From: Chloroflexota bacterium
GTDB taxonomy: Bacteria; Chloroflexota; Dehalococcoidia; Lucifugimonadales; Lucifugimonadaceae
Assembly: GCA_022567135.1 (NCBI GenBank)
Contig: JADFHP010000010.1
Coordinates: 1-39,453, forward strand
Direction of reading: 5' to 3'
Length of the DNA: 39,453 nt
Below, in pieces: positions 4,191 through 39,453 of the stretch; position 1 is the first letter of the stretch; the number at the start of each line of letters is the position of its first letter. The position numbers and the translations under genes are program-made. The notes beneath the pieces are model-generated. The model did not search any database. It saw only the letters and a list, made by a program, of their open reading frames with translations, and was not told the origin of the DNA.

Positions 4191-4449
4191 ATCACGTACA
4201 CGCTCAATGCGGGCCACTGTCCCAACGTCGTGTGGTTCCGCTGGCCCTCCAACTTCCGGGCCGCTCTTGATCAGCGCAACGCCAAAGCGCCTATCGCCAT
4301 CAAGGCATCGCTTCAGCATCTCCCTGTAGCGGGGCTCGAAGATCCGCAGCGGCAGCGGGGCGCCCGGGAATAGCACCGTGTTCAGGGGGAAGATTGGGAG
4401 CGTCTCTGACATCAGTCTGACGGGAGTTTAGCAATCGGGCCCAATCGAC

Positions 4450-13528: not shown

Positions 13529-14808
13529 ATCCGCCCAACGAATCGGCCGGGATTCAGGGTACGTTTAGGGTCGAACTGCTCTTTCATGCGCCTCATGATA
13601 TCGATCGCCGGCCCCGGGTTGCCCCAGACGTCAATCTCGCTCTTCAATTCGGACGGATACCTCTCGAAGACGGCCTCGCACCGGAACTCCCGGGCCGCCA
13701 TCGCCGCCGCCGCAGCGGTCTTCGCCAGCTCCTCCGGGTCGCCACCCGGCCAGTCCGCCAGCACAGTGCCGGTGCCGACGTGAATAGTCGCGCCGAACGC
13801 GCCAACTGCGTTCGAAGCTCCTATAAGTCGCGATGCGTACGCGAACGCGTCCGTGGGTTTCAGCGTCGCTCTGGCCGATAGCGCCGGCGGCGTCTGCGCA
13901 TCCGGAAGCGACCCCGCCCAGGCAGCCTCCGCGTCTTGTCCGCCTAATACATCGAATCCGTCGGCCATGTCCGCCCCGAATAGCGACGTAAGCTCATCTA
14001 CCTGCCTGCGAACCGCTGAAAATCCACCCGATACCCGCGCCAGGATCACCACCGCCTCCGACTCGCCATCGCCAGGTCCGGCAAGCGTCTGAACCACGGC
14101 GAGCGCCCGTGCCCCGACCAGCACCGCAAGCGCCTCGGGCTGAAACGACCAGTTGAAGATACGCATGGCTGTCTCGCGCGCCGCATCCAGTCCGTCGAAC
14201 CAACCCGCCACCGTCTGCGTGTCTGCCGGGATTGGGGAGACCTTGAATGCGACCTCCGTGATGATTCCAAGAGTACCAAGCGCACCGATATGAAGTCGCA
14301 CAAGATCGAACCCCTGCACGTTCTTGACCACCCGTCCGCCGGACTTGGTCACCGCGCCGTCCGCCTCCACCACCTCCAACCCGATCGCCAGGTCGCGAAC
14401 GCCGCCCACGTTGGAGCGCACCGGCCCAACCGCGTTCGACGCCAGCGAGCCGCCAATAGTTGCCGCAGCCGGCTCCGGCGGGTCAAAGTCCAGGCGCTGG
14501 CCAGACTCCCCAAGCACCGCCTGCAACTCCGCGATCCGAGTGCCGCCGCTGACAACGACGGTCAGGTCCGCAGGCTCATATTCGACTATGCCGGAGATTC
14601 CAGTGAGATCGACTGCAACGTCGTACCGCTCCGGGGTGTTGCCAAGGCTCATCCGCGTCCCGCCACCCCACGGGATAACCGCCTCGCCTGCTGAGTTGGC
14701 ATCGGCGATCACCCGCGAGAGTTCGTCTGCCGAGGCTGGCCGCTCGACGCGGCTCGGGGACAGGCCATCGACCTCAAACCCGGTTTCCGATTGCGATGCC
14801 TCGGCCAA
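13525..14808 (-). CDS. GlcE-like FAD-binding subunit
   Basis: 427 residues from TTG 14808, eight bases after the aldo/keto reductase stop; no clear Shine-Dalgarno is visible, so coupling to the upstream gene is likely. The N-terminal PCMH-type FAD domain shows 'VIPWGGGTRMSLG' and 'ATIGGSLASNAVGPVRSNVGGVRDL'. The C-terminus ends 'FDPKRTLNPGRFVG', the family's terminal motif. GlcE is the second flavin-type subunit of glycolate oxidase and lies next to GlcF here as in other bacteria. The substrate of the complex may differ from glycolate given the sugar-acid-like neighbours. Confidence 0.85.
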   Translation of the reverse strand: MAEASQSETGFEVDGLSPSRVERPASADELSRVIADANSAGEAVIPWGGGTRMSLGNTPERYDVAVDLTGISGIVEYEPADLTVVVSGGTRIAELQAVLGESGQRLDFDPPEPAAATIGGSLASNAVGPVRSNVGGVRDLAIGLEVVEADGAVTKSGGRVVKNVQGFDLVRLHIGALGTLGIITEVAFKVSPIPADTQTVAGWFDGLDAARETAMRIFNWSFQPEALAVLVGARALAVVQTLAGPGDGESEAVVILARVSGGFSAVRRQVDELTSLFGADMADGFDVLGGQDAEAAWAGSLPDAQTPPALSARATLKPTDAFAYASRLIGASNAVGAFGATIHVGTGTVLADWPGGDPEELAKTAAAAAMAAREFRCEAVFERYPSELKSEIDVWGNPGPAIDIMRRMKEQFDPKRTLNPGRFVGRI

Positions 14809-14816
14809 GCGACTTG

Positions 14817-15791
14817 CTACACCAGCCGCGGGCCGTTGTCGCGGGCCCAGTCGGCAATTTTCTGCGCATCATCAAGTGCCGCGGCAGACACCGGCAACTC
14901 CCAGTCCGCCAGGTTCGCCTGCAACTGCTCCTCCGTTCGCGCCCCCACGATGCACGCCGTGACCGCAGGGTGCTTGAGTACCCACTTGGTGCCGAGTTGA
15001 TACGGACTCACGTCGTACTTCTCACAGATCTTGGTATACCGGTCCACTGCCTCGAACTGGCTTTCGTGCCAGTACGTGCCGCGGTAGAAATTTGACGCCC
15101 GGAACTCCTCACTGAATCGTGTGCCCGGCACCGCGCCGTCACGACTGTGCTTGCCCGTGAGAAAACCGCCCGCCATCGGGCTGTAGACGATCACGCCAAC
15201 GCCGAATTCCCTGCATGCGGGCAGCAGCTCTAATTCGGGATGCCGGTAGAGCATGTTGTAGCGCGGTTGCGTCGAATCCATCCGCGCCAGCCCGTCCCGG
15301 TCGCTTATCCAGAGGGCTTGCGTTAGCTGGTATCCAGAAAAATTGGAGCAGCCGATGTACCTCACCTTGCCCTGATGCACCAGGTCGTCCATCGTGCGCA
15401 ACATCTCGGCTAGAGGGGTATCCGGGTCGAATGCGTGGATCTGATACAGATCGATGTAATCGGTCTTGAGGCGCCGGAGCGAGTCCTCGATCGCCTTCAT
15501 GATCGCCTTGCGCGAAGTGCCGATATCATGCAGCCCGTCGCCAACTTTGCTCCGGCATTTCGTGGCGAGAACAATCTCATCGCGCCGGCCCTTGAGAAAC
15601 TTGCCGACGATCTCCTCCGAACGCCCGCCGACGTAGCTGTTCGCCGTGTCGAACGTGTTGACCCCGGCATGGGCCGCCGCGGCCATCATGCGCAGCGCTG
15701 TCGACTCCTCGGTCTGATCGCCGTAGTTGTCGCACCCCACGATGTACTGCGAGATCTTGAGGCCCGTCCGACCCAGGTTTACGTATTCCAA
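14817..15791 (-). CDS. aldo/keto reductase (first of tandem pair)
   Basis: 324 residues from 'MEYVNLGRTGLKIS'. The catalytic tetrad is visible: Asp 48 and Tyr 53 in 'FDTANSY', Lys 78 in 'LATKCRSKVGD', His 119 in 'LYQIHAFD'. 'IGCSNFSGYQL' and 'YSPMAGGFLTGKHS' are standard barrel segments, and 'IVGARTEEQLQANL' is the cofactor phosphate-binding end. It reduces aldehydes or oxidises alcohols with NAD(P)H. It lies 8 bp before GlcE and 19 bp after its paralog, in the operon. Confidence 0.88.
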   Translation of the reverse strand: MEYVNLGRTGLKISQYIVGCDNYGDQTEESTALRMMAAAAHAGVNTFDTANSYVGGRSEEIVGKFLKGRRDEIVLATKCRSKVGDGLHDIGTSRKAIMKAIEDSLRRLKTDYIDLYQIHAFDPDTPLAEMLRTMDDLVHQGKVRYIGCSNFSGYQLTQALWISDRDGLARMDSTQPRYNMLYRHPELELLPACREFGVGVIVYSPMAGGFLTGKHSRDGAVPGTRFSEEFRASNFYRGTYWHESQFEAVDRYTKICEKYDVSPYQLGTKWVLKHPAVTACIVGARTEEQLQANLADWELPVSAAALDDAQKIADWARDNGPRLV

Positions 15792-15810
15792 GCCCTGCTC
15801 ACTTTAGTTG

Positions 15811-16836
15811 CTATCCTGTTGAAATCTGGACGGCCTGAACCGGCGGCGGATATGTCACCGGCGTGCTCGCCGCAAACTCCTCCGCGATCTCACGTACCAT
15901 CGACATCACACCTTCCGGCGCGTCTTCGCTGAGAGCATCGAGCGTCGATTCGATCTGATCCACGCGGCGGGCCCCAATTATCGGACTGGTCACCCCCGGA
16001 GTCTCCCTGACCCACTGAAGCGCAAGCCGGATCATGGGCTGGCCGGACTCGTCCGAAAGCGCACGCAGCTTCTCCACAACCTCGAACCTGTACTCGTCGA
16101 AATACTTGCGCTTCAGTGATCCGCCGCGTTCTGCATCCCGTGTCCCGAACTTCGTTTCCGGCTCCGCGCCTGACGGACTGTGCTTGCCGGTCAGGAAACC
16201 GGACCCCATCGGGCTGTATGCCGTCACCGCCACCTTCTCCTGAATGCAGAGCGGGATGGTTTCGACCGCGAGCCCCGGCCGGACGATGTTGAACTCCGAC
16301 TGGATGCACTCGAACCGGGCGAGATTGTTCACGTCGCTGATCCAGAGCGCCTGCGCAAGCTGCCACGCCGCCCAGTTTGAACAGCCTACGTAGTGGGCTT
16401 TCCCGGCCCGCACCACGTCGTCCAGCGCCCGCACCGTCTCCTCCACCGGCGTCGTCCGGTCGAACGAGTGGATCAGATAGAGATCGACGTGGTCCGTACG
16501 CAGCCTGCGGAGGCTCTCATCGATGCCGTTCAATATGTGATAGCGGGACGCGCCAACGTCGTTCGGCCCGTCGCCCACACGCGAGCGAACCTTAGTCGTC
16601 AGAAAGACCTCATTACGACGCCCTGAATCTTCCAGGTACTTGCCGATCACCTTCTCCGAGTTGCCGTCGGCATACGAGTCGGCGGTGTCGATGTGGTTGA
16701 TGCCCGCATCGAGCACGGTGCCCAGTATCTGGCGGCTCGTTTCCTCATCGGCGCCGTACGGGTTGCCGAGGTTATCCGTGCCGTATGCCACCTCTGAGAC
16801 ACGCGCGCCGGTCCTGCCGAACTGGACATATCTCAA
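15811..16836 (-). CDS. aldo/keto reductase (second of tandem pair)
   Basis: From TTG 16836 the protein starts 'RYVQFGRTGARVSEVAYGTDN', aligning with its neighbour's N-terminus. The ORF-track GTG at 16851 overlaps the previous gene more deeply. GTGAGG lies a few bases upstream of the TTG, and TTGA joins start and stop with the Gfo/Idh gene. Tetrad: Asp 50, Tyr 55, Lys 82, His 123. The 'SYAxGNSE', 'GDGPNDVGASR' and 'GCSNWAAWQLAQALWISD' segments parallel the other copy, showing an old tandem duplication. The divergence between copies suggests different substrates or opposite steps of one pathway. Confidence 0.87.
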   Translation of the reverse strand: MRYVQFGRTGARVSEVAYGTDNLGNPYGADEETSRQILGTVLDAGINHIDTADSYADGNSEKVIGKYLEDSGRRNEVFLTTKVRSRVGDGPNDVGASRYHILNGIDESLRRLRTDHVDLYLIHSFDRTTPVEETVRALDDVVRAGKAHYVGCSNWAAWQLAQALWISDVNNLARFECIQSEFNIVRPGLAVETIPLCIQEKVAVTAYSPMGSGFLTGKHSPSGAEPETKFGTRDAERGGSLKRKYFDEYRFEVVEKLRALSDESGQPMIRLALQWVRETPGVTSPIIGARRVDQIESTLDALSEDAPEGVMSMVREIAEEFAASTPVTYPPPVQAVQISTG

Positions 16837-17879
16837 TCGAGCCTCACCCACCTTTCCTCGTCCGCCGCGAGCTGAGCCGCGTCCCTGAGGCGCGCCGCCT
16901 CCAGGCCCGCGGCAAAACTGCTCTTCACCGGTTCGCCGGTCAATACGGCCCGCACGAACTGCTCGTACGGCTGCGGGTACGCCGGGCCGGCCGGCACCTC
17001 TGTCAGGACGTCTCGGTTTCCAAGACCGTTGATGCCCCTGATCGATGTCAAGCCGTCGTTTTGCAGCCGGCCTGTCGAGCCGGCGATATCCAGATGGACG
17101 TGCGTTCCGCTCGAATCGTCAAGGCCGCGTGTGATGAAACTCGTGTGAATCACCGCATACGAGCCCGTCGAGAACTCCAGTAGAAACGCCGACGAGTCGG
17201 GCGCATCGCAGTCCATCCCGTCGGGATAGCCAGGAATCGGCCGATTCTTCTCCATCACCGGGGCTATCGCTGCCAGCCGACGCACAGGTCCACCCAGCAG
17301 CAGGGCCATGTCGAAGGCGTGTATCAGCTCGTAGATCGTCCCGCCTCCCGCCTCGGCGCGAAACCGCCACGGCGTCGCATCGGGCCTGAGGTCGTGGGCC
17401 TGGCTCTGGCCCCACCAGATGTTGATGTGGTAGATATCGCCGAGATAGCCATCGTCGATCAACTGCTTGATCTGGCCGACCGGCGTCCGGCCGCGCTGGT
17501 TGAAGTTTGTGCAGTGGACAACGCCCGCCGCCTCCGCGGCGGCCAGCATCTCCTCGCACTGCGACGCCGTCATGGCAAGAGGCTTGTCGCACAGCACGTG
17601 CTTACCCGCCGCAATGGCATCCATCGCTATCGGATGATGCGAGTCGGTAGGCGTCACGATATCGACCGCGTCGATCTCACCGTCCGCAAGCAGCTCTTTG
17701 TAATCGGTGTAGCCCTTGCCGACGTCCCACTTCGACTGCATCTCAGCCAGCGCATCCGGATCACGCCGGCAGAATGCGACAACCTCAACGCCGTCAACTT
17801 TGGCGAGCTCTTCCATGTGTGTGTTGGTGAAACCGCCGGCGCCGATTATTCCGACCCTGACAGGCGCGTCCTGTGCCAT
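16833..17879 (-). CDS. Gfo/Idh/MocA family NAD(P)-dependent oxidoreductase
   Basis: 348 residues from ATG 17879 with AGGGAG five bases upstream. The Rossmann motif 'GIIGAGGFTNTH' opens the protein, and 'CDKPLAM' carries Lys 99 of the conserved EKP-type active site. 'WRFRAEAGGGTIYELIHAFDMALLL' contains the GG..D..H metal- and substrate-side motif. The family oxidises or epimerises sugars, inositols and sugar acids. It sits between the GlcD-like and AKR genes, which points to a polyol or sugar-acid substrate (inference). Confidence 0.88.
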   Translation of the reverse strand: MAQDAPVRVGIIGAGGFTNTHMEELAKVDGVEVVAFCRRDPDALAEMQSKWDVGKGYTDYKELLADGEIDAVDIVTPTDSHHPIAMDAIAAGKHVLCDKPLAMTASQCEEMLAAAEAAGVVHCTNFNQRGRTPVGQIKQLIDDGYLGDIYHINIWWGQSQAHDLRPDATPWRFRAEAGGGTIYELIHAFDMALLLGGPVRRLAAIAPVMEKNRPIPGYPDGMDCDAPDSSAFLLEFSTGSYAVIHTSFITRGLDDSSGTHVHLDIAGSTGRLQNDGLTSIRGINGLGNRDVLTEVPAGPAYPQPYEQFVRAVLTGEPVKSSFAAGLEAARLRDAAQLAADEERWVRLD

Positions 17880-17969: not shown

Positions 17970-19421
17970 CTAAACAACGTCCGACGTCCCGGCGCGCCGG
18001 GTCTTGGAGTAGCCGGTCTCGGCCTCAGAACCCTCCCCAACCGGGAACACCTTCGACGGATTGAACCCATCGTCCGTCGCGAATGCAGGGCCCAGACGCG
18101 CCATAGACCGCATGTCGTCGTCGGTGAACACCAGCGGCATGTAGGCCTGCTTCTCCAGGCCGATGCCGTGTTCTCCGGAAAGCGCCCCGCCGGCATCGAC
18201 ACAAAGCTTCAGGATCTGGCCGCCTGCGTCCAGCACCCGCTCCGTTTCACCCGGGATCCGCTCGTCGAAGAGAATGCAGGGATGCAGGTTCCCGTCGCCC
18301 GCATGGAATACGTTGGCGATCATGAGGTCCATCTCCGCGCCGATCTCCGCCACCTTCGCGAGAACCTCCTGCAGTTTGGTCCGGGGCACTACGCCATCTA
18401 CCAGATAGTAGTTGGGCTTCAGGTTCCCGAACGCCCCAATCGCACCCTTGCGGGCGGCCCACAACTCGGCCCGACGCTCCGAATCGTCGGACGATTCATA
18501 TGACGCGACGCCGTTGTCCCTGCAGAGCTGCTCAATCGCGGCCGACTGGTCTTCGACGCTCTCACGCAGCCCGTCCACCTCGATAATCAGCACCGCCTGA
18601 GCCTCAGCCGGGTAGTTGGGGTGATAAGTAGGCTCGACGGCATCGATCGTCACCCTGTCCATCATCTCCAGCGCAGCCGGAACGACTCCCCCGGCGATGA
18701 TGTCCGAGACCGACTTCGAGGCCTGATCCATCGAGCCGAACACGGCCACCATCGTCCGGATCATCTCGGGCAGCGGCATCAACCTGACGGCAATCTTCGT
18801 CGCGATGCCGAGCGTGCCTTCGGATCCGATGAACACGCCGCGCAGGTCGTACCCCGGCGCCTCCCGCGCCTCGCCGCCGAGCCAGACCATCGACCCATCG
18901 GCAAGCGCCACTTCCATGCCCGTGACGTGGTTCGTCGTCACGCCGTAAGCAAGGCAGTGCGGGCCGCCCGCGTTCTCGGCCACATTGCCGCCGATCGAAC
19001 AGGCCCTCTGGCTCGACGGATCCGGCACGTAGTACAGGCCGAGCGACTCAACCGCGATGGAGAGATCGGCGTTGATAACGCCCGGCTCGACGATCGCGAT
19101 CCGATTCTCGGCGTCTACTTCGATGATCGACCGCAGGCGCGATGTGACTATCTGCACAGTGCCTTCGGTGGGCACTGCGCCCCCGGAAAGCCCCGTGCCG
19201 GAGCCGCGCGGCACAACGGCGATGCCAACTTCGTGGCACAGCGCGACGCAGAGCGCCAGCTCTTGCGTCGTTCCGGGCACCACCACGGCCCGTGGCAGGT
19301 GCTTGTCCACCGACCCATCGTATTCGTAGACGATCAGAGCGTCGGGCCGGTGCACCACATAGCGTTCCCCGACCACGTCGCGCAGCCGGAAGAGCAGACG
19401 CTCGAACGCATTCATCGTCAT
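17970..19421 (-). CDS. GlcD-like FAD-linked oxidase
   Basis: The start is ATG 19421, 11 bp after the alcohol dehydrogenase stop. The ORF-track extension to 19547 overlaps that gene and is spurious. The 483-residue product has the PCMH FAD domain ('VVPRGSGTGLSGGAVPTEG' near 70-87, 'CSIGGNVAENAGGPHCLAYG' near 141-160) and the FAD-oxidase C-terminal domain ('NVFHAGDGNLHP', 'SGEHGIGLEKQAYM'). This is the D-2-hydroxyacid oxidising subunit type (glycolate, D-lactate). The last ~20 residues are an extra tail. GlcE and GlcF partners lie downstream in the same operon after three other genes, which is an unusual order. Confidence 0.88.
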   Translation of the reverse strand: MTMNAFERLLFRLRDVVGERYVVHRPDALIVYEYDGSVDKHLPRAVVVPGTTQELALCVALCHEVGIAVVPRGSGTGLSGGAVPTEGTVQIVTSRLRSIIEVDAENRIAIVEPGVINADLSIAVESLGLYYVPDPSSQRACSIGGNVAENAGGPHCLAYGVTTNHVTGMEVALADGSMVWLGGEAREAPGYDLRGVFIGSEGTLGIATKIAVRLMPLPEMIRTMVAVFGSMDQASKSVSDIIAGGVVPAALEMMDRVTIDAVEPTYHPNYPAEAQAVLIIEVDGLRESVEDQSAAIEQLCRDNGVASYESSDDSERRAELWAARKGAIGAFGNLKPNYYLVDGVVPRTKLQEVLAKVAEIGAEMDLMIANVFHAGDGNLHPCILFDERIPGETERVLDAGGQILKLCVDAGGALSGEHGIGLEKQAYMPLVFTDDDMRSMARLGPAFATDDGFNPSKVFPVGEGSEAETGYSKTRRAGTSDVV

Positions 19422-19432
19422 GGCAGGCGGGC

Positions 19433-20551
19433 CTACGGAGCCACTACGGCGCGGGTGATCTTGTTCGAATCCCGCCCCATCCACTCGGCCTGCGAGAACG
19501 CGTCGCCGATCTTCTCTATCGGGAACACGTCCGAGACGACGTCGCACACCGCGAACCGGTCCCGGTTGCGCATCAGGAAGTCGATGGCCGATGGCAAAAT
19601 CCAGGGGTCGTAATGCTGAATACCGTGGAATCGTATCTGTCGTGACACCAGCTTCTGCACATCGAGCGAGGCAAAGCTGTTCGGACTGATGTGCCCGACC
19701 TCCAGGTAAGTGCCGCGTTGCCGCAACATCTTGACGCCCTCTTCGACCGCTGACGGGAAGCCGACCAGTTCGATGGCGATGTCCGCGCCGATGCCGCCGG
19801 TCAGCTCCATCACCCTCTCGATACGCGCCTCCGGAGTGTCATACTCGGTGATGTCTATCGTATCGGTGGCGCCCGATCGCAGCGCCAGATCGAGCCGGGC
19901 CGGCTGGCCGTCGATCGCGATCACCTGATGCGCGCCCATATCGCGCGCCACGGCCATCGCATTCACGCCGAGGCCGCCCGCGCCCTGCACAACAACGTGA
20001 TCGCCGAATCTGACGCGGCCGATATGCAGCGCCTCTATCACCTGCGCCAGAGCGCAGTTGATGGGCGCAGCCTCCTCGTCCGAGATCTCATCCGGCAGCT
20101 TGAAAATGAAGTTGGGCCCGCGCAGGTAGTAGTACTGCGCGAACCCGCCATTGCACACCGCCCACTCGTCCAGCGGCTTCCGGCCACCCCGATACAGACA
20201 CGCTCCCAGCTCACCGCGAATGCAGTTGTAGCAACGCATGCACGGGAAGAAATAGCTGAAGACGACGCGATCGCCCTCCTTGAGCGGATTGCGCAATGAG
20301 TCCGTCTCGACGCCCTTGCCGAGCGCCGCAATCTCACCCATCATCTCGTGCCCGAAAACGAACGGATCGCGCGGCGGAGCGCCCTTCTCGATGCCGTCAC
20401 CACGCCAGATGTGCAGGTCCGACCCGCACACGCTTGTGCGGAGGACCCGGATGCTGATCCCGCCCTCCTCAACCTCGGGAACCGGAAGCTCCCTCAGCTC
20501 AAACGACTGGTCGGAGTCGTGCCATACCGCTGATATTCCCGTATCGACCAT
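19433..20551 (-). CDS. zinc-dependent medium-chain alcohol/polyol dehydrogenase
   Basis: 372 residues from ATG 20551 with GGGAG upstream. Catalytic zinc ligands are Cys 42 ('TSVCGSDLHIW') and His 68-Glu 69 ('FGHEMMGE'). The structural zinc site is Cys 104/107/110/118 ('CMRCYNC'...'GAC'). 'QGAGGLGVNAMAVA' (189-202) binds NAD(P). It belongs to the MDR superfamily, with sorbitol/threonine-dehydrogenase-like features. It is the second gene of the operon, between the aldolase and the GlcD-like gene. A short CCCGCCAGCGGG inverted repeat overlaps the region of its Shine-Dalgarno. Confidence 0.88.
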   Translation of the reverse strand: MVDTGISAVWHDSDQSFELRELPVPEVEEGGISIRVLRTSVCGSDLHIWRGDGIEKGAPPRDPFVFGHEMMGEIAALGKGVETDSLRNPLKEGDRVVFSYFFPCMRCYNCIRGELGACLYRGGRKPLDEWAVCNGGFAQYYYLRGPNFIFKLPDEISDEEAAPINCALAQVIEALHIGRVRFGDHVVVQGAGGLGVNAMAVARDMGAHQVIAIDGQPARLDLALRSGATDTIDITEYDTPEARIERVMELTGGIGADIAIELVGFPSAVEEGVKMLRQRGTYLEVGHISPNSFASLDVQKLVSRQIRFHGIQHYDPWILPSAIDFLMRNRDRFAVCDVVSDVFPIEKIGDAFSQAEWMGRDSNKITRAVVAP

Positions 20552-29094: not shown

Positions 29095-30636
29095 TCAGGC
29101 CGGCAAACGGACGGTGAAGCGAGTGCCGCCGCCGCCCCCAACCCCGGAAGCGTCAGAATGCACAGGACTCTCAGCGCTCACTGTGCCGCCGTGCGCCTCC
29201 ACCAACTGCCGCACAATCGTCAGGCCAAGTCCGGCTCCGCCCGTCGCGTGACTGCGTGACGGGTCGACACGGTACAGCCGGTCAAAAACATACTCCAACT
29301 CATCGCCGGGTATCCCCGGACCGGTATCGGTGACAGACAACGCGACCTCACCCGGGCCGGCCGTTACGTCGACATCCACCCGTCCGCCCTCTGGTGTGTA
29401 GCTGATAGCGTTTTCGATCAGGTTGGCAATGACCTGCCGAATGCGCGTCTGATCGACGCTGATCTCCGGGAGGTCCGAAGATCGCGTCAGCGCGAGGGCA
29501 ATATCCCGCTCATTGGCTCTTGGCATGAATGAGTCGACCGTCAGATCGGCGATATCGCCCAGATCGCCGCTGGTCATATCCATGCGGAGCGCTCCGGCCT
29601 CCATCATCGCGATGAGCCGCAGGTCTTCCACGAGATGGCTCAGGTGCAGTACCTGGGAGTGCAGAGAGGCGATGGTTTCGGCATCGGGCTCGATCAGCCC
29701 GTCCTTGATCGCTTCGAGATAGCCCTGGAGGTTCGATAAAGGCGTGCGCAACTCATGCGCCACATCTGCCGTCATCGACCGCCGGACGGCCTCGGCATCC
29801 TCGAGCTGGGACGCCATATTGTTGAAAGTGCGCCCCAGTTCGCCAACCTCATCCCGGCCCTTGACAGGGACGCGCATGGAGAAGTCGCCGCGGCCCAGCG
29901 CGACGGCAGCGCGAGTGAGCGTATGCACGGGCGCCAGGGTACGCTGGGTCGTCAGAGAGATGATCACTATGCCCGCCGCGCCTGCGGCCAGCCCTGCCCA
30001 GATCAGCGACCGGTTGAACGACGCGGCCAGTTGCGAGAGCTGCGGCTCGACCTGGTTCTGGGCCGAATCGCCCTCGATGCTTTCGACCTCTTCAATGCCC
30101 GTTGGCTCAGAGCGCGGGGGCCGCGGTCCATCTTCGCCGATCGTTAGCGACTGTATCCTCAGCGCTTCAGAACTGATGGTGTACGGAATCGACTCAAGGA
30201 GCCCATGGGGAATCGGGTAAGGCGACTCGAACAGAATCTCGCCGAGCAGCCTGCCCCTCACCATGATCGGCCGGCGCGTCACCTGCGGTCCCTTGAAGAA
30301 CGTCTCCGCCCTCATCTCGCCATCGTATCGATGCGACCCCGCGATCATATTCCCGTGCCGGTCAACCACCGCGATCTTCCATCCAAATAGCTGAGCGGCG
30401 TTTCGAAGCGCCGGCTCCAGCAGGCTCATCCGCGGTTCAAGCTCCAGATCGAAAGTATCCGCGACCACGTTTTCAAGGCGCGCCACCCGCGCCACCTCAA
30501 CGTCCTCACCGAAGGCATCAAGCTCCTTCTGTGTGGCGTACGACGCATAAAAGCCCACCCCGGCAAGGGCCAGCGCGAGCACAGATACAAAGCCGACTAC
30601 CAGTCGGAATTGCAGGCTATGGAGCCAGTCAGACAT
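29095..30636 (-). CDS. membrane sensor histidine kinase
   Basis: ATG 30636 ('MSDWLHSLQFRLVVG') lies inside the response-regulator stop region (ATGTCTGA, 8-bp overlap); the ORF-track extension is not used. 513 residues: TM1 ~11-31, an extracytoplasmic sensor of ~175 residues, TM2 ~209-229, HAMP 230-283, then the H box 'DVAHELRTPLSNLQGYLEAI' with phospho-accepting His 294. The N box is 'ANLIENAISYTPEGG', G1 'DTGPGIPGDEL' and G2 'GGAGLGLTIVRQLVEAHGG'. The sensor region matches no domain I recognise. It phosphorylates the OmpR-type regulator encoded just upstream. The stimulus may involve the secreted repeat protein of the same operon. Confidence 0.9.
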   Translation of the reverse strand: MSDWLHSLQFRLVVGFVSVLALALAGVGFYASYATQKELDAFGEDVEVARVARLENVVADTFDLELEPRMSLLEPALRNAAQLFGWKIAVVDRHGNMIAGSHRYDGEMRAETFFKGPQVTRRPIMVRGRLLGEILFESPYPIPHGLLESIPYTISSEALRIQSLTIGEDGPRPPRSEPTGIEEVESIEGDSAQNQVEPQLSQLAASFNRSLIWAGLAAGAAGIVIISLTTQRTLAPVHTLTRAAVALGRGDFSMRVPVKGRDEVGELGRTFNNMASQLEDAEAVRRSMTADVAHELRTPLSNLQGYLEAIKDGLIEPDAETIASLHSQVLHLSHLVEDLRLIAMMEAGALRMDMTSGDLGDIADLTVDSFMPRANERDIALALTRSSDLPEISVDQTRIRQVIANLIENAISYTPEGGRVDVDVTAGPGEVALSVTDTGPGIPGDELEYVFDRLYRVDPSRSHATGGAGLGLTIVRQLVEAHGGTVSAESPVHSDASGVGGGGGTRFTVRLPA

Positions 30637-31372
30637 CACCAAACCTGTAACCGACTCCATACACGGTGGAGAGGAACCGCTGCCCGTCAGGATCCCGCTC
30701 GATCTTTCGCCGCAGATTGGAGACATGGGTATCCAGGGTTCTGTCGAACCCCTCGAAGTCGTACCCGAAAACCCGCTCGATGATCCGGCCGCGGGGGTGT
30801 ACCTGCCCCGGCGCTCTCATGAAATGGACGAGAAGATTGAACTCGGTCGGCGTGAGCTTGATCGAGTCACCCCCGACCTTGACGACGCGGGCGTCGACGT
30901 GGACCGTCAGCTCGCCGTAAGAAAGCACGTCTCCGGCATCTTCTCCGCTTTCCCCGTCGTCAACGGATGTCCTCCGGAGCACGGCGCGCACCCTCGCCGA
31001 AAGCTCGCGCGGGCTGAACGGTTTCGTCATGTAATCGTCGGCGCCATAATCGAGCCCGGAGAGCTTGTCGGCCTCATCGACCCGCGCCGTGAGCATGATC
31101 ACCGGAACGTCGTTTTTCTCTTCCCGGAGGCGCCGGCAGATCTCAAGGCCGTCCATGCCCGGAAGCATCAGGTCCAGAACGATCAGGTCCGGACTGGTTT
31201 CCCGGGCTAACTTCAGCCCCTCCGACCCATCGTGAGACACGGTGACGTCATGACCGTCTCGGGCCAGGTAGAGCCGCGAGATTTCCGCCGCGTGCGGGTC
31301 GTCCTCAACAATGAGGATGGATTTGCCCGAAGCGTTCCGTGTGCCGGGTGGAGTTGTCTGTGCTGAGGTCAT
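30629..31372 (-). CDS. OmpR-family response regulator
   Basis: 247 residues from ATG 31372. The receiver domain has acidic residues Asp 24/25 ('IVEDDPH'), phospho-acceptor Asp 67 ('VLDLMLPGMDG') and Lys 117 ('DYMTKPFSPREL'). The C-terminal winged helix (~150-245) shows 'IKLTPTEFNLLVHFMRAPGQV' and 'RTLDTHVSNLRRKIE'. It regulates transcription once phosphorylated by the adjacent kinase. Two overlapping palindromes in front of the operon are candidate binding sites. Confidence 0.92.
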   Translation of the reverse strand: MTSAQTTPPGTRNASGKSILIVEDDPHAAEISRLYLARDGHDVTVSHDGSEGLKLARETSPDLIVLDLMLPGMDGLEICRRLREEKNDVPVIMLTARVDEADKLSGLDYGADDYMTKPFSPRELSARVRAVLRRTSVDDGESGEDAGDVLSYGELTVHVDARVVKVGGDSIKLTPTEFNLLVHFMRAPGQVHPRGRIIERVFGYDFEGFDRTLDTHVSNLRRKIERDPDGQRFLSTVYGVGYRFGDV

Positions 31373-31426: not shown

Positions 31427-32581
31427 TTAAATCGATCGGTTCAAAATATCCGTCTCTTCGGACGGCGCCTCATCGTCGAGATCAGGGAACTCGAACCGGA
31501 ACGGCTCTCCATCGTTGAAACGGAACTCGAATAACCCGGAACCGCCGAAATCGCGGAAGCGTTCTTCAAGGCGCTGTCTCAGATCATCGAGGTTCTCGGG
31601 GTCGATCTCGCCGAGTTCCGGAATCACCAACGGTCCCCTGTCTCCGAAAAGATCCCCAAACCGGAAACCCCGGAACGGGAATCGCCCATCTGGACTCTCG
31701 AAATCAAACTCAAACTCGAATGCGCCCGAGCCATTCCCGTCTTCCGAATCGTGATCGGAGTGCCCGAAAAAGTCCTCGAGGTGGAAGCGCTCTCCCAGAT
31801 GCCCGAGCCCGCCAAACAGATCAGGGAGCGTCTTGAAGGCGTGGGTCTTGGCGCCAAAGAAGAAACTCTCGGCAAATGGCAGTCCAAAGTGCAGTGGCCC
31901 GGGAATCAACTTGTTCGCAGCGTCCGGCCGGCTGTGCCACCACGCCTCGAACGCGTCCGCATCGCCTTGCTCGATTATCCCGGCCTCTACCAGGCCGTCG
32001 ATGGTCAGCGGAAGCGGCTCTTCATCGTTTGTCCGCCGTTCTACCTGGATCTTGAAAAATTCGATCGCCTCGGGCAGGCCGAGGTCGAGCAGGCCATCTG
32101 GGAAATCGTCCAGCCACGCCTTTACTTCGGCCGCGTCTTCTTCGGTTATCTCGCCGCTCAATACAGCCGCCGACAAGGCAGGGCGGCCGATGCGGAACAC
32201 GCTGCGGAAAGTCGGGCCATCACCGTCGATCAACTCTCTAACGGTTGCGGCCGTGATTTCGCCAATCGACTCGGGCCGCGATGCCAGCCACGCCTCTATC
32301 TCAGCCGCTTCCTCTTCGGATAGCTTCTCGGCATGCACAAGCTTGGCCAGCAGATCGGCGATCTTTTCGTCCGTCAGCTCGCCGCCGGCCTGCTCAAAGG
32401 CGTCCTTCAAGTTGGATGGGTCTATGCCCAGGATCTCGGCGGTCCTATCGAAAAGCCTGTCCTTGTGCTCGCCGCCGTGCCCGGTGAGCGCTTGCGCTGC
32501 GACCACGCCACCGCTGATAGTGGCGATCACCACGATCAGCAGCGGCACGAGAAATATGCGGCGTCGAAGTCTGCGAATCAT
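31427..32581 (-). CDS. secreted acidic repeat protein, function unknown
   Basis: 384 residues from ATG 32581. Residues ~9-30 form a signal peptide or anchor ('FLVPLLIVVIATISGGVVAA') after a basic start. Three units of the pattern (I/L)-T/S-E-E-(E/D)-A-A-E-x-x-A-W-x-x-x-x-P have their Trp at 98, 156 and 214, an exact 58-residue period. The 'DRLFDRTAEILGID' block before them resembles repeats in other Chloroflexi exported proteins. The last ~120 residues are strongly acidic and rich in Phe and Gly ('FEFEFDFESPDGRFPF'). First gene of an operon with the response regulator (54 bp) and kinase. It could be a ligand, accessory sensor or cation-binding surface protein. I do not recognise a named family. 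Confidence 0.75.
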   Translation of the reverse strand: MIRRLRRRIFLVPLLIVVIATISGGVVAAQALTGHGGEHKDRLFDRTAEILGIDPSNLKDAFEQAGGELTDEKIADLLAKLVHAEKLSEEEAAEIEAWLASRPESIGEITAATVRELIDGDGPTFRSVFRIGRPALSAAVLSGEITEEDAAEVKAWLDDFPDGLLDLGLPEAIEFFKIQVERRTNDEEPLPLTIDGLVEAGIIEQGDADAFEAWWHSRPDAANKLIPGPLHFGLPFAESFFFGAKTHAFKTLPDLFGGLGHLGERFHLEDFFGHSDHDSEDGNGSGAFEFEFDFESPDGRFPFRGFRFGDLFGDRGPLVIPELGEIDPENLDDLRQRLEERFRDFGGSGLFEFRFNDGEPFRFEFPDLDDEAPSEETDILNRSI

Positions 32582-32823: not shown

Positions 32824-34077
32824 TTAAAACTCTTCCGGACACCAGGGCATGCGCTCCCCGGCGAACATCGCGTCGGCTCGTTCAAGCGCCCCGCTCGCAG
32901 TCTCCTCCACACGCCCCGCCGCACGCAAAGTAGTGAATGAGACGCCGCCCAGGTATGTCGCTGCGAGATCGGCCACCGCCAACTCGATATCCGCGGCCTC
33001 AGTCGTCGCCACGCATGACGCGCCGTCGCCATCGGCCTCCAGCCTGTACGCTCCGTCGTTCCGCCCATGTTTCTGGGGACTAACGTCGTCGTGGACGCGG
33101 ATAACGATGCGGCCATCTGCCGAGTAAGCTCGGGCAGCAAGCGCCGCCGGAACGTCCATCAGCTTTACCCATACTCCGTCTATCGGCTCGCGACGCAACT
33201 GCCGTGAATCGTGCAGCAGCCAGGGCAGCGGGTCGTCAGCGGGAAGGTTCCAGTACTTGATCGTCTCCATCAGATCGACCGATAAGCAGTAGTTCCACAG
33301 AGCACGATGCGCCTCGGCAGTCTTCCAGACCAGCTCCTCGATCTCCAGCGAAGGGCCTTCCTTCGGGTTGATCCGATACGTCACGTAACCCTCGCAAACG
33401 TCGCCGTCCCGGTACACCGTATGCACCTTCGGACCCGCGCCGTGGCGCTCGTGTTCCGGGTCGGCCAGCAGGAATCCCCACCAGTGATCACCCCGGGCGA
33501 GCATTCCCGGCCATAGCGGCCTGGCCGCCTCGTATGCCTGCTGCATGTGCGGCAGAGCGTCATCCGGGCTCATGATCGTCAGCCGGCCGGGAAAATCGAC
33601 CGCCCCACCAAACGCCGCATGTTTTCGGGAAATCGACCAGTGTTCCATCGGCACGGCCATGCCGAATCCGAACCGGCCGTATATGGGCGTCTCGGAAGGC
33701 CAGAGCGCCGCCAGGACATCGCCCCGCTCACGACTCTCTCCCAGTTGCCGGTCCATCATCGCCCTCAGAATTCCCCGCCGGCGATGCGTCGGCTTCACGC
33801 CGACGTAGGCGATGCCTGCCGTCGGGACGGCCGCGCCCCCTGGCACGGTCATGGGCACCGACTGCGCGGCCGTTGTGCCAACGATCTGATTACCGTCCAG
33901 CGCGACAAACGCCCGATCGTCCTCGAAGATTCTCCGCTCCTGATCAATGCGGCCCTGTGGCGTGTCATTGCCGAATCCGAAATCGACAGCCCGGAAGAAC
34001 GACTCGAACTCGCCATCTTTCAAGGCGCGCAGCTCGATGCCCTCGGGCACTCTTGCCTGCCTAGAAATCGATGACAT
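32824..34077 (-). CDS. Eis-like GNAT N-acetyltransferase (copy 1)
   Basis: 417 residues. The N-terminal GNAT domain has the acetyl-CoA loop 'VGVKPTHRRRGILRAMM' (near 90-106) and the Eis signature 'SETPIYGRFGFGMA'. A degenerate second GNAT half and a C-terminal SCP2-like domain follow, ending in 'PEEF', a C-terminal Phe like the Eis family's catalytic carboxylate. Eis proteins are hexameric acetyltransferases that multiply acetylate aminoglycosides or other amines (family knowledge). The start overlaps the end of copy 2 by 17 bp. Third and last gene of a tandem set. Confidence 0.87.
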   Translation of the reverse strand: MSSISRQARVPEGIELRALKDGEFESFFRAVDFGFGNDTPQGRIDQERRIFEDDRAFVALDGNQIVGTTAAQSVPMTVPGGAAVPTAGIAYVGVKPTHRRRGILRAMMDRQLGESRERGDVLAALWPSETPIYGRFGFGMAVPMEHWSISRKHAAFGGAVDFPGRLTIMSPDDALPHMQQAYEAARPLWPGMLARGDHWWGFLLADPEHERHGAGPKVHTVYRDGDVCEGYVTYRINPKEGPSLEIEELVWKTAEAHRALWNYCLSVDLMETIKYWNLPADDPLPWLLHDSRQLRREPIDGVWVKLMDVPAALAARAYSADGRIVIRVHDDVSPQKHGRNDGAYRLEADGDGASCVATTEAADIELAVADLAATYLGGVSFTTLRAAGRVEETASGALERADAMFAGERMPWCPEEF

Positions 34078-35269
34078 TCCAGGGCGCCTTTCGAGTCGCG
34101 AACATAGCGTCTGCTGTTTTCAGTGCGCTGTCGGACCGGGCTTCTATGCGGCCCGCCCGTGCAAGCACGCTTGGCCGGACGCAGCCGAAGTAGATCGACG
34201 CCAGATCGGCGACGTTCATTTCCAGGTCGGCCGGCCCCGATGACTCCCTACAAGACGCGCCGTCCGCATCCCCTTCCAGGTCAAATGTGCCATTGGAGAC
34301 GCCCAGAAAATCGTCCCCTATCTTCAGAGACAACTTGCCGTCGCTCGAGTAGCTACGCGATGCGAGAACGGCCTGAACGTCGAGTATCCGGGACCAGATC
34401 CCGTCATGCCGCAACATATCCAGCTTTCTCATATCCACGAGCATCCAGCGCAGGGGATCATCGACCGGCCGCGTCCCGGCGGAAATTTCCTCGCCAAGAT
34501 CGATCCCGAAACAGAACCTCCAGAGCGCCGCCGCTGCCTCGTCTGAGGCCGCGATCGCCTCCGCGACCCGGATATCTTTTCGGCCGTCACCGGTTCGCCG
34601 GTAGAGCATGTAACCGCCCAGGCCCGCGTCGTCCTCGTAAAGCGCGCAGCTCAGAGCGCTATCGCCGCGGCGATCGTACTCAGGGTCCTTGAGGCGGTGC
34701 TCCCAGTCATGTTCTCCTCTGGATATCCAGCCCGGTCGGTCTGCGCCCGCCGCATCGAATATCGCCGGCAGTATGCCCGCCGCTTCATCGAGCGTAATAA
34801 TGCGGACGCTGCCTGAGGAGTCGAGTCCCGGCCGCAACTCAGCGTCGGACCTGGCTATCTTGTAGCGGTCGCGCTGCACGCTAATTCCGTAACCGAACCG
34901 GCCATATATCGGGGTTTCCGACGTTGCCAACGATGTAATCGCGTCGCCCCGTTCCCTGCGCTGCTCAAGAATCTGGCGCATCATCTGCGTGAGGATGCCC
35001 CTTCGCCTGTGTGTTGCCGCGACGGTAACGATGGTGATGCCCCCCGTCTGTAGCTTGCCGCCGGGAACGTTGGTCTGAAAATCGATAGCGCCAATCGTGC
35101 CCACAATATCGGGACCATCGAACGCGCCCAGATTGTCTATTCGTTTCAGGAAACCCTCGAAGTCGTCCAGGGCCTCTGGGCTCGGATGTTCCGTGAAGCC
35201 GCGTTCGACGGCGCGGGCGAAGGTTCGAAGTTCTTCCGTATCTGGCTTGCGTATCTCGTAATCAGGCAT
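34061..35269 (-). CDS. Eis-like GNAT N-acetyltransferase (copy 2)
   Basis: The start is ATG 35269 ('MPDYEIRKPDTEEL'), four bases after the stop of copy 3; the ORF-track extension to 35389 lies inside that gene. 402 residues with 'VAATHRRRGILTQMM', 'SETPIYGRFGYGIS' and terminal 'WNVIDF'. Domain order matches copy 1. Placement in the middle of the array with 4-bp and 17-bp junctions implies one transcript. Sequence divergence from its neighbours is high outside the motifs, so duplication is old. Confidence 0.86.
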   Translation of the reverse strand: MPDYEIRKPDTEELRTFARAVERGFTEHPSPEALDDFEGFLKRIDNLGAFDGPDIVGTIGAIDFQTNVPGGKLQTGGITIVTVAATHRRRGILTQMMRQILEQRRERGDAITSLATSETPIYGRFGYGISVQRDRYKIARSDAELRPGLDSSGSVRIITLDEAAGILPAIFDAAGADRPGWISRGEHDWEHRLKDPEYDRRGDSALSCALYEDDAGLGGYMLYRRTGDGRKDIRVAEAIAASDEAAAALWRFCFGIDLGEEISAGTRPVDDPLRWMLVDMRKLDMLRHDGIWSRILDVQAVLASRSYSSDGKLSLKIGDDFLGVSNGTFDLEGDADGASCRESSGPADLEMNVADLASIYFGCVRPSVLARAGRIEARSDSALKTADAMFATRKAPWNVIDF

Positions 35270-35273
35270 CTCG

Positions 35274-36497
35274 TTACCAGTACATGTGCGCCCACGGCGC
35301 AACTGTCGAGCGGAACATTCTGTCGAGCCTCGCCACTCCGTCTCCGGTGTGATCTTCGATACGTCCGGCGCGCTGCATCGACCGCGCACTCACCCCACCC
35401 AGATACAGCGAACCCAGCTCTCTCGCTGCCATAGTCACGTCCGGCCCCTCGGAAGTGGGCGAGCAGGCCGCCCCCTCAGGTCCGGCATCGAGCAGGAACC
35501 GGCCGTTGTTCCAGGGACAGAACTCATCGACTACCTCGATGACCATCGAGTCCTCTGTGTCGTACTTGCGGGCGCTCAGCGCCCCCGGCACGTCCACCAA
35601 TCTCAGGTACATCGAGTCGCCTACTTCCCGCTTCATCGCCCGCTTGTCGGCCAGCAGCCATACGAGCGGCTCATCGGGCGGCCGGGTCGCCTTTACCGTG
35701 CTTACCAGGTCGACATCAAGACAGAATCTCCAGAGGCCGGCGTATGCCCTGTCCGAGAGGGCGATCAGCTCCTTCACTGTAAGCACCTGCCGTGGCAAAG
35801 CGTCTACCCAGTTATCGTCGATCGAATAGGCCGCGAACCCTTCGATGCCTTCGTCACCGTCATAGGCGACGTAGAACATCTTCGGCGGCTTGTCCAGTCC
35901 CGTTTCATCGTCGTACAGACGTGCCGTCCAGAATGCATCCGAGCGCGTGACCATGCCCGGAAACAGATGCATCGCCCGCTCATGGATGGGTCTGAACAGG
36001 GCCTTAGCATCTTCGTATTCGACAAACTTGATCTGGCCGCCGGACTCAACCTCGGATTCGAACGCGCTGTTGTCGGCGTCGATCTCCCACTTCTCCCGGA
36101 AGTGCGACATCCCATAGCCGAACCGGCCGTATATCGGAGCCTGCGAGGTATACAGCGCCGCCAGCGGCTCGTCTCGCTCGTGGATATCGTCCATCTGCCA
36201 GCGCATCATCGCCGTCATGATCCCCCGCCTGCGATGAGTCGGAAGAACACCAATCCAACTGACGCCCCCGCATGGCAGGACGCTGCCACCGGGCACCGAC
36301 ATGCCAAGCGAATACGTCATGCTCTGGCCAACGAGCTGGCCATCGTCGAAAGCCGCCATCGACCGGTCGAACTCGAACGCGTTGTCACGCCAGTAGGCCG
36401 CCCGAGCCGGGTTAGGCAGTTCGCCCTCGACCATCTCATCGAGCGCGGCAACCGCATCGAAATCGTCGATAGTTAGTTTTCTGTATTCGAGATTCAT
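35274..36497 (-). CDS. Eis-like GNAT N-acetyltransferase (copy 3)
   Basis: 407 residues from ATG 36497. The acetyl-CoA loop 'IGVLPTHRRRGIMTAMM' and 'SQAPIYGRFGYGMS' are present, and the C-terminal SCP2-like domain ends 'PWAHMYW'. The terminal residue is Trp rather than the Phe of the other two copies, but the C-terminal carboxylate used in Eis chemistry is still available. First gene of the three-gene array, so any promoter lies in the 100 bp upstream. Substrates are unknown. Confidence 0.86.
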   Translation of the reverse strand: MNLEYRKLTIDDFDAVAALDEMVEGELPNPARAAYWRDNAFEFDRSMAAFDDGQLVGQSMTYSLGMSVPGGSVLPCGGVSWIGVLPTHRRRGIMTAMMRWQMDDIHERDEPLAALYTSQAPIYGRFGYGMSHFREKWEIDADNSAFESEVESGGQIKFVEYEDAKALFRPIHERAMHLFPGMVTRSDAFWTARLYDDETGLDKPPKMFYVAYDGDEGIEGFAAYSIDDNWVDALPRQVLTVKELIALSDRAYAGLWRFCLDVDLVSTVKATRPPDEPLVWLLADKRAMKREVGDSMYLRLVDVPGALSARKYDTEDSMVIEVVDEFCPWNNGRFLLDAGPEGAACSPTSEGPDVTMAARELGSLYLGGVSARSMQRAGRIEDHTGDGVARLDRMFRSTVAPWAHMYW

Positions 36498-36600
36498 GGC
36501 TCATCGTGAAATTGGCGCGAAATGCGAATGATAATTCACACGGCCTCAGAAGCGGTGCAGAACGAGGTGCGGGGGAACTACGAGGAGGCGGCGCCGACGA

Positions 36601-37341
36601 TTAGTCCACGTCCACTCTGGGTGGCGGGTTCAACACCGGGTGCAACGCCAGCAATCGCGCAACGGCCCCAGACGCGTTGTAGATCCCGTGACGCACCGTC
36701 GGCTCACACATGAACAGATCCCCCTCGGCGAGAGGAACGTTATCGTCATCGCCGTAAACGGCCGTCAAATTCCCCTCGTAACAGAACATCGACTCCTCGT
36801 GCGCCGGGTGGAAATGATTCGTCGCAACAGAGCCCGGCTCGAATGTCAGTTCCGAAACGTACGATGACTCCGCGCCAAGGAAATCGCCCACCATGTCGTA
36901 GCGCGAAACCCCGGGCATGAACTCGAACGACTCGTGCTGATCCCTGAAATAGACCCCCTGCTCCGGCGGGCCGTCGACCCACTCCGGCTCCGGCACGACC
37001 TCGCGCTCAGGAGACGGATTTGGATACATCACGATGAAGCGCGCCGGCGTGTCGCCCGCGTTGCCGATGCCGTGGCCCAACCCCCTGCGGGCGATCATGC
37101 AGTCTCCAGCCTTCGCCCTGAACCTGTGGCCATCCAGGCGCAGCTCCACCTCACCCTCGGCGACGAAGATCGACTCCTCCGTATTCGGGTGGACGTGGTA
37201 CACAGATGACACACCCGGCTCCAGCGTCAGATCGCCAACGGTCATCATCTTCGAGCCCAGTTCGCCGCCCATCATCTGGTACATGGAGCTACCTGGCATC
37301 GGCGACGCAGTCGGCTGGTCAGATCTTCTGTTGAGTGGCAT
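36601..37341 (-). CDS. bicupin (two-domain cupin)
   Basis: 246 residues from ATG 37341 with GAGGA upstream. Cupin 1 has 'YHVHPNTEESIFVAEGEVEL' (His 49, His 51, Glu 55) and 'GDCMIARRGLGHGI'. Cupin 2 has 'NHFHPAHEESMFCYEGN' (His 176, His 178, Glu 182) and 'GDLFMCEPTVRHGIYN'. Both metal sites look complete. Bicupins include oxalate decarboxylases, gentisate-type dioxygenases and (S)-ureidoglycine aminohydrolases. The length and N-terminus do not decide among them. No signal peptide is visible. Confidence 0.85.
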   Translation of the reverse strand: MPLNRRSDQPTASPMPGSSMYQMMGGELGSKMMTVGDLTLEPGVSSVYHVHPNTEESIFVAEGEVELRLDGHRFRAKAGDCMIARRGLGHGIGNAGDTPARFIVMYPNPSPEREVVPEPEWVDGPPEQGVYFRDQHESFEFMPGVSRYDMVGDFLGAESSYVSELTFEPGSVATNHFHPAHEESMFCYEGNLTAVYGDDDNVPLAEGDLFMCEPTVRHGIYNASGAVARLLALHPVLNPPPRVDVD

Positions 37342-37523: not shown

Positions 37524-38123
37524 CTATCCGCCTCTCACGTGCGCCAGACCCGCCCCCAGCGCGCGCTCCCACTCATCGGTTCCGTACAGCGCGGCCGGCG
37601 ACGCCGTCTCTGCCGGTGCATCCCCCGACGCGCTCAGCTCCATCTGCCACTCCCCGACGTCCACCCACTTGCCGCTCTTGAACCCCACCGATCGCTCGAC
37701 ACCCGCCGCGCGGCCGCCGAGGCTCTCAATCAACCCAACACTCGCCGGGTTCGGCAGAGCCACCCTGCCAAACGCCTGCCGGAAACCCAGCAACCGCAGG
37801 CACTCCATCAACGAAACCGATAAGGCCCTGCCTATGCCCCTGCCGCGATAGCCGTCCGCGATATACACCGCCATCTCAACCGACCACCGGTACGCAAGCC
37901 GCTCCCTCAGGCTCGACCCGTAAGCGTAGCCAACAACGGAGCCATCGATCTCACAAACCAGCCACGGATAACGTGTCGTGATGTCCGCTATGCGCGCCTG
38001 AATCTCCTCGACGCTGGGCGCCTCGGTCTCGAACGAGACGAATGTGTCCCTGACGATCGGAGCGTAGATCTCAGCTATCGCGGATGCATCGTTGGTGGTG
38101 GCAACCCGTATCAGCGCACTCAT
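37524..38123 (-). CDS. GNAT N-acetyltransferase, phosphinothricin-acetyltransferase-like
   Basis: 199 residues from ATG 38123 ('MSALIRVATTNDASAIAEIYAP'). 'FETEAPSVEEIQARI' and 'PWLVCEIDGSVVGYAYGS' follow the Pat/Bar pattern. 'VYIADGYRGRGIGRAL' is the acetyl-CoA loop, and 'RVALPNPASVGLIESLG' completes the fold. The C-terminal ~30 residues are an extra tail. ATG overlaps the MFS stop as ATGA, so the transporter and acetyltransferase are coupled. Members acetylate phosphinothricin, methionine sulfone or related amino acids; the true substrate is uncertain. Confidence 0.85.
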   Translation of the reverse strand: MSALIRVATTNDASAIAEIYAPIVRDTFVSFETEAPSVEEIQARIADITTRYPWLVCEIDGSVVGYAYGSSLRERLAYRWSVEMAVYIADGYRGRGIGRALSVSLMECLRLLGFRQAFGRVALPNPASVGLIESLGGRAAGVERSVGFKSGKWVDVGEWQMELSASGDAPAETASPAALYGTDEWERALGAGLAHVRGG

Positions 38124-39453
38124 TGTTCATCTGGTTCCCGGGTGAAAAAGGCCAACGCAGCGCCGACCAGGGCGAACCCCACTACCGCAAAGTAGGCAAT
38201 CTTCCAGCCACTCAGAAACGCAGCGCCCGCGCCGGGGATGACGTCAATCTCGTTCAAGGGTATGTCGAACCCGTCTGCCGCCATGATTCCCACCACTATC
38301 GCGGACGCGACCGCCTGCCCGGTCACGTTGCCAACATTCCGCGTCAGATTCGTCAGCGCGCTGACAACACCGAAACGCGATCTGGAGATCGAGCCCAGGA
38401 TAATGCTGTTATTCGGCACGCTCCAGAGCCCCATGCCAAGACCGTTCGCAAACGTGACGACCAACAATAACCACAACGCGGTTTCATCCGTGATGAAGGC
38501 GAATCCCAGCGCGGTCGCGACGATCACTCCGAACCCCATTACCGTGAATCTTCTTGACCCGAACGCGTCTGACAGCCTGCCGCTTGCCTGGGCCGCGATC
38601 GCCATGCCAACCGCGCTTACGAACAGCACACCGCCTGCAGCTCCTTCGCTCATGCCCCGGAAGCTGATCAGGAATATCGGCATCAAGAATCGCGTCGCCG
38701 TCGTACCCATGAAACCCATCCAGCGAGTCGCGATGGCCAGCGCGAACACAGCGTTCTCGAACATTCTCAGGTCCAGCATCGGCGCCGGATTCCTCAGCTC
38801 CCAGAAGATGAAGGCCGCCAGCAACGCCGCGGCCAGCAGGCCTCCTCCAATGATCAGCGGTGAAATCCATGCCACCGCAAACGGGTTGTTTATGGTGACG
38901 ACAAGCACGATCACCGCGACGGCCGACAGGAACGCGCCCAGCCAGTCGTAGGGTGGACGCTTCCCCTGAATCGCCTCGCTGATCCGAGAGTCGTCCAGCA
39001 CGATGAAGCTCCAGACCAACGCGATCGCCATCGGAATCGCCATCACGATGAACAACGCCTGCCAGCCCCAAACCTGCAGCAGCAGCCCGCCGATGATGGG
39101 CCCCGCAGCACCGCCAATCGCAACCGCGGTGGTCTGGCTGCCGATCGCCAGCCCGCGCTCACGCGTGGGAAAAACGGAGATGATGATGGCGGTCCCGACG
39201 GCCTGCCCCATCGCGCTGCCAACCGCCATGATCACTCGGGCCACTATCAGGATGCCGAGAGTGGGTGAGAAGGCCGCGAAGATGGCGCCGGCAATGAATA
39301 GCGCCTGGCCGATCAGATGGACCTTCTTCCGGCCGATGATGTCTGCGACCCGGCCCACCGGAAGCATGACGGCGCTGATCGTCAGTGACTGGGCGATGAT
39401 GACCCACGACACGGCGCGCAAAGTCTCTCCAAAGTCTTCCGCGATCGCGTTTA
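38120..39453 (-). CDS. MFS transporter, partial at window edge
   Basis: The frame continues past the ORF-track TTG (39421) to the window edge ('AIAEDFGETLRAVSWVIIAQ'), so the true start lies outside. The 443 visible residues contain the many hydrophobic helices of a DHA-type drug/proton antiporter. Motif A is 'PVGRVADIIGRKKVH', and 'AVGGAAGPIIGGLL'-like glycine-rich helix 5 (motif C type) appears as 'IGGAAGPIIGGLLLQVWGW'. The protein ends 'FFTREPDEQ'. Coupled by ATGA to the GNAT gene, it may export what the enzyme modifies or serve an unrelated efflux role. Confidence 0.88.
   Translation of the reverse strand, partial: NAIAEDFGETLRAVSWVIIAQSLTISAVMLPVGRVADIIGRKKVHLIGQALFIAGAIFAAFSPTLGILIVARVIMAVGSAMGQAVGTAIIISVFPTRERGLAIGSQTTAVAIGGAAGPIIGGLLLQVWGWQALFIVMAIPMAIALVWSFIVLDDSRISEAIQGKRPPYDWLGAFLSAVAVIVLVVTINNPFAVAWISPLIIGGGLLAAALLAAFIFWELRNPAPMLDLRMFENAVFALAIATRWMGFMGTTATRFLMPIFLISFRGMSEGAAGGVLFVSAVGMAIAAQASGRLSDAFGSRRFTVMGFGVIVATALGFAFITDETALWLLLVVTFANGLGMGLWSVPNNSIILGSISRSRFGVVSALTNLTRNVGNVTGQAVASAIVVGIMAADGFDIPLNEIDVIPGAGAAFLSGWKIAYFAVVGFALVGAALAFFTREPDEQ

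Follow-up and report, generated by a model that had tools for sequence, protein, structure and literature searches.

Most studies of Eis deal with the actinobacterial enzyme, which acetylates a broad range of amines and aminoglycosides. The closest described counterpart of the proteins reported here is M. abscessus Eis2 (PDB 6rft, 9mva), and we know of no tandem Eis array around Eis2. Eis enzymes acetylate aminoglycosides, arylalkylamines and peptides with a specificity that varies by homologue (PMC5799202, PMC4964394), and the preferred amine also differs among homologues (PMC5799202). In the Eis of M. tuberculosis (Mtb), Tyr126 acts as general acid, and the role of remote base has been proposed for the C-terminal carboxylate, that of F402 (PMC4964394). 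Activity of the Mtb enzyme requires the hexameric form (PMC3217979).

Layout of the Eis array

The analysed stretch of DNA, referred to as the window, comprises 39,453 nt of a Chloroflexota bacterium (GTDB lineage Bacteria; Chloroflexota; Dehalococcoidia; Lucifugimonadales; Lucifugimonadaceae) and corresponds to positions 1 to 39,453 on the forward strand of contig JADFHP010000010.1 in assembly GCA_022567135.1. It contains three genes for Eis-family N-acetyltransferases, all on the minus strand: Eis-1 (35274..36497, 407 aa) ending in ...APWAHMYW, Eis-2 (34061..35269, 402 aa) ending in ...APWNVIDF and Eis-3 (32824..34077, 417 aa) ending in ...MPWCPEEF. A first-pass annotation had described three complete, divergent Eis paralogues in one tight operon. 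The open reading frames are indeed complete, with pairwise identities of 33, 39 and 40%, and both reported junctions proved exact: Eis-1 ends at 35274 and the ATG of Eis-2 lies at 35269, leaving a gap of 4 bp, while the start of Eis-3 at 34077 lies inside Eis-2, which ends at 34061, giving an overlap of 17 bp. The term operon holds for the common strand and the tight spacing, and these two features suggest a shared transcript. A scan for promoters and terminators at the array gave no signal above chance.

A search of the source assembly (2.6 Mb, about 83% complete) found no PF17668 genes besides Eis-1, Eis-2 and Eis-3. As each of the four genomes of the window's genus also has the array, it is not a chance arrangement.

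Family membership and fold

Acetyltransf_9, Acetyltransf_17 and SCP2_2 scored above the Pfam gathering cut-off in all three proteins, which corresponds to the layout GNAT-GNAT-SCP2. On the NCBIfam Eis-like subfamily NF002367 (/ PRK01346), they scored 326-398 bits, above the cut-off of 259. On the named Eis equivalogs NF002364 and NF002368, only 161-285 bits were reached, with cut-offs of 701 and 576. The array proteins thus resemble Eis of M. tuberculosis and M. smegmatis in domain layout, in the acetyl-CoA motif THRRRG and in the equivalent of Tyr126 (PMC4964394), but differ in staying below the named-Eis cut-offs, in belonging to another phylum and in their gene context.

M. abscessus Eis2 was the best PDB match of all three copies (E 1e-53 to 1e-69), followed by other mycobacterial Eis as the nearest solved structures. 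AlphaFold models of Eis-1 (pLDDT 92) and Eis-2 (pLDDT 94) superimposed on the Eis2 chains with a TM of about 0.93, making Eis2 their best fold match as well; the three-domain Eis fold is assigned from these models for Eis-1 and Eis-2 and from sequence only for Eis-3. The three-domain layout and the catalytic tyrosine are common to Eis2 and the array copies, although identity to Eis2 is only about 30-34%. Each array protein adds a new member to the Eis family, and no new chemistry is implied.

Catalytic residues and C-termini

All three copies contain the acetyl-CoA loop THRRRG. The tyrosine of the motif IYGRFG, aligned to Mtb Tyr126 (Y126), was likewise found in all three and was invariant across the homologues aligned. 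The proteins have full-length ends and finish, after a conserved PW, with W, F and F in operon order. These are the residues that had been pointed out earlier as different C-termini (F, F, W in coordinate order). The difference means little, because catalysis is proposed to use the main-chain C-terminal carboxylate (PMC4964394) and the residue itself is variable: 144 complete homologues ended in F (124), Y (7), L (5), W (4), I (3) or G (1). With F, Y, W, L and I all occurring among homologues, the terminal residue was ruled out as a functional marker.

The whole C-terminal motif, by contrast with its last residue, is position-specific within the genus array. It reads AHM[Y/A]W or PH[L/I]Y[Y/F] in copy 1, [N/T]V[I/V]DF in copy 2 and [C/S]PEE[F/I] in copy 3, and an acidic penultimate residue is kept in copies 2 and 3 and missing from copy 1. 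Such motifs are consistent with different amine pockets in the three enzymes.

Distribution in the family and class

Eis genes were detected in 55 of the 76 genomes of the window's bacterial family. More than one copy was present in 36 of them, as same-strand neighbours in 35 and near contig ends in one (G040); these 36 genomes are not independent and can be traced to few events. Outside the family, about 50 genomes of the wider order and class samples had more than one match, but adjacent genes were seen in only four (G170, G162, G150 and G302). In the rest of the class, genomes with several Eis genes mostly have them scattered.

Within the family, the relatives g7, g11, g3, g10 and g12 carry a single Eis gene, and the sister genera g2, g6, g8 and g9 carry tandem A/B pairs in fixed order. 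Like the genus array, these pairs consist of distinct, ordered paralogues with short junctions (28-43% identity). They differ from it in forming separate clades and in occupying another locus, and are therefore a separate array. Close to the A/B pair of g9 (L139 522-7194 and equivalents) lie SDR, TPP-enzyme and FtsZ-family genes; in the g9 genomes G047 and G048, neither an A nor a B copy was seen.

This distribution bears on the suggestion of the first-pass annotation that the paralogues form mixed hexamers, in which combined active sites would widen the range of amines. Its premise that Eis proteins are hexamers is backed by the literature for mycobacterial Eis (PMC4964394, PMC3217979). The dependence of Mtb Eis activity on the hexamer (PMC3217979) would suit such mixing, as would the tight gene junctions, which favour co-translational contact, and the constant adjacency and order of the genes, both in the three-copy array and in the A/B pairs of other genera. 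However, the subunits are only 33-40% identical, and the catalytic residues are kept in each copy, so that no division of labour is visible. Moreover, mixing is not a general requirement, since close relatives (g7, g11, g3, g10 and g12) manage with one Eis and the A-type copy of g11 has no B partner. Mixed hexamers are therefore considered unlikely. A stricter version, in which the fixed gene order would reflect the ordered co-translational assembly of a defined hetero-hexamer that evolved more than once in one family, appears quite unlikely.

Phylogeny and selection

In a tree of 98 Eis proteins, positions 1, 2 and 3 each formed a clade of the four genus species with a support of 100/100. The distinct copies and their order therefore predate the divergence of the genus. 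In the best tree, the copy 1 clade was sister to the single Eis of the neighbouring genus g7 (95/95), and part of the copy divergence may thus be older than the genus itself. The first copies of g2, g6, g8 and g9 fell into one clade (100/100), which the single genes of g11 joined, and their second copies into another (99/97) that included one long branch; the separate A/B pair is hence also old. The deeper branching was weakly supported. Unrelated origins of the copies, which the first-pass annotation had named as evidence against its proposal, were not borne out, as a tree with the 12 genus copies constrained to one clade was not rejected (AU p = 0.19).

Per-domain identity within the genus was 52-65% within one position and 28-38% between positions. 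A recent duplication was ruled out by the low identity of the copies (33-40%) and by their origin before the genus split. Comparing genomes G000 and G072, dN/dS was 0.08 for copy 1, 0.18 for copy 2 and 0.17 for copy 3, and all three copies are therefore under purifying selection. The phylogenetic and conservation check proposed with the annotation thus came out in favour of an array retained by selection.

A fourth Eis reading frame lies upstream of copy 1 in genome G070 (L113 8708-9856). An intact fourth gene was ruled out there, as its N-terminus is disrupted and an in-frame stop precedes the C-terminal motif. At the equivalent site in G071 (L114 about 4260-4380), an Eis C-terminal remnant of about 37 residues was left, and no such remnant was found in G000 and G072. 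Copies thus decay at this locus, as would be expected if the tandem expansion served mainly enzyme amount or if the copies were neutral and on their way to loss. Against this, all four species have the three core copies in intact form, dN/dS of these copies lies well below 1, and their divergence far exceeds what dosage alone would keep. Dosage or drift is accordingly held to be very improbable, and given that the array does lose copies, the retention of its three core copies is all the more telling.

Gene neighbourhood

The neighbourhood of the array is conserved in the genus in the order MFS, small GNAT, cupin, Eis-1/2/3, 384-aa protein, response regulator, histidine kinase and amidohydrolase. 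In the window, those from MFS to histidine kinase share the minus strand with the array. Upstream lie a two-domain cupin protein (36601..37341), found there in four of four genus members, a single-domain GNAT (Acetyltransf_4; 37524..38123) and an MFS transporter gene (38120..39421) that overlaps the latter by 4 bp and is open at the window end. Between MFS and cupin, the small GNAT was detected in all genus members but G072 (three of four); MFS genes occur in all four, and there are two of them where the contig reaches far enough. The array is followed by a protein of 384 aa (31427..32581) whose N-terminal part includes a hydrophobic segment and for which a Pfam search gave no match, an OmpR-type response regulator (30629..31372) and a sensor histidine kinase with HAMP, HisKA and HATPase domains (29095..30726).

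The 384-aa-type protein accompanies the neighbouring two-component system both in the window's genus and in g7, where a single Eis gene is followed by the genes for this protein, the regulator and the kinase. In g12, Eis is followed by regulator, kinase and amidohydrolase genes. The array therefore stands at an ancestral Eis/two-component locus, where copies were gained by duplication or insertion.

The likely correspondence of copy 1 to the g7 single gene (95/95), together with the position of that gene upstream of the same type of 384-aa protein and two-component genes, would fit a reading in which one copy is a housekeeping acetyltransferase of metabolites or proteins and the others detoxify xenobiotics. 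Eis proteins can also acetylate peptides and lysines (PMC4964394). As the tree backbone is poorly supported, such divergent roles are regarded as improbable.

Just upstream of Eis-1 (window 36498-36545 and its counterpart in L115), G000 and G072 share about 35-40 bp of nearly identical sequence, while the rest of the gap has diverged. The stretch, GTGAATTATCATTCG...AATTTCACG, has imperfect inverted ends and is a possible operator or promoter.

Elsewhere in the window, genes for FAD-linked oxidases and CCG/4Fe-4S proteins at 12200-14808 and 17970-19547 resemble glycolate oxidase subunits (GlcF and GlcE, plus GlcD about 3 kb off); they are surrounded by genes for aldo/keto reductase, GFO/IDH and alcohol dehydrogenase. 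Two adjoining aldo/keto reductase genes (14817-16851) are another tandem paralogue pair.

Proposed function and significance

The array is best explained, with reasonable though not high confidence, by three co-transcribed and catalytically competent Eis enzymes that each form a hexamer of their own and are specialised for different amines, which they would detoxify jointly. Eis-1, Eis-2 and Eis-3 are predicted acetyl-CoA:amine N-acetyltransferases, probably made from one transcript, to judge from spacing and strand. By analogy to mycobacterial Eis, each copy would most likely assemble with itself into two stacked trimers. Each enzyme may serve another range of amines, be it antibiotics, arylalkylamines, polyamines or peptides, as the differences read from their sequences suggest. 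Together, the three would then provide broad acetylating detoxification of amines. The conserved locus additionally encodes an MFS exporter and a further GNAT, as well as a two-component system that may control the array.

A search of open-licence papers yielded no description of Eis arrays in this group. Conserved multi-paralogue Eis arrays are real and apparently undescribed, while the chemistry of the enzymes is already known. The enzymes look ordinary; the unusual feature is that fixed sets of distinct copies are kept side by side. Selection maintains such sets, of two or three highly divergent Eis proteins each, at two loci in an uncultured family of Chloroflexota. These arrays are a natural panel for studying the determinants of substrate range, the mixing of hexamers and the amines that are relevant to these bacteria.
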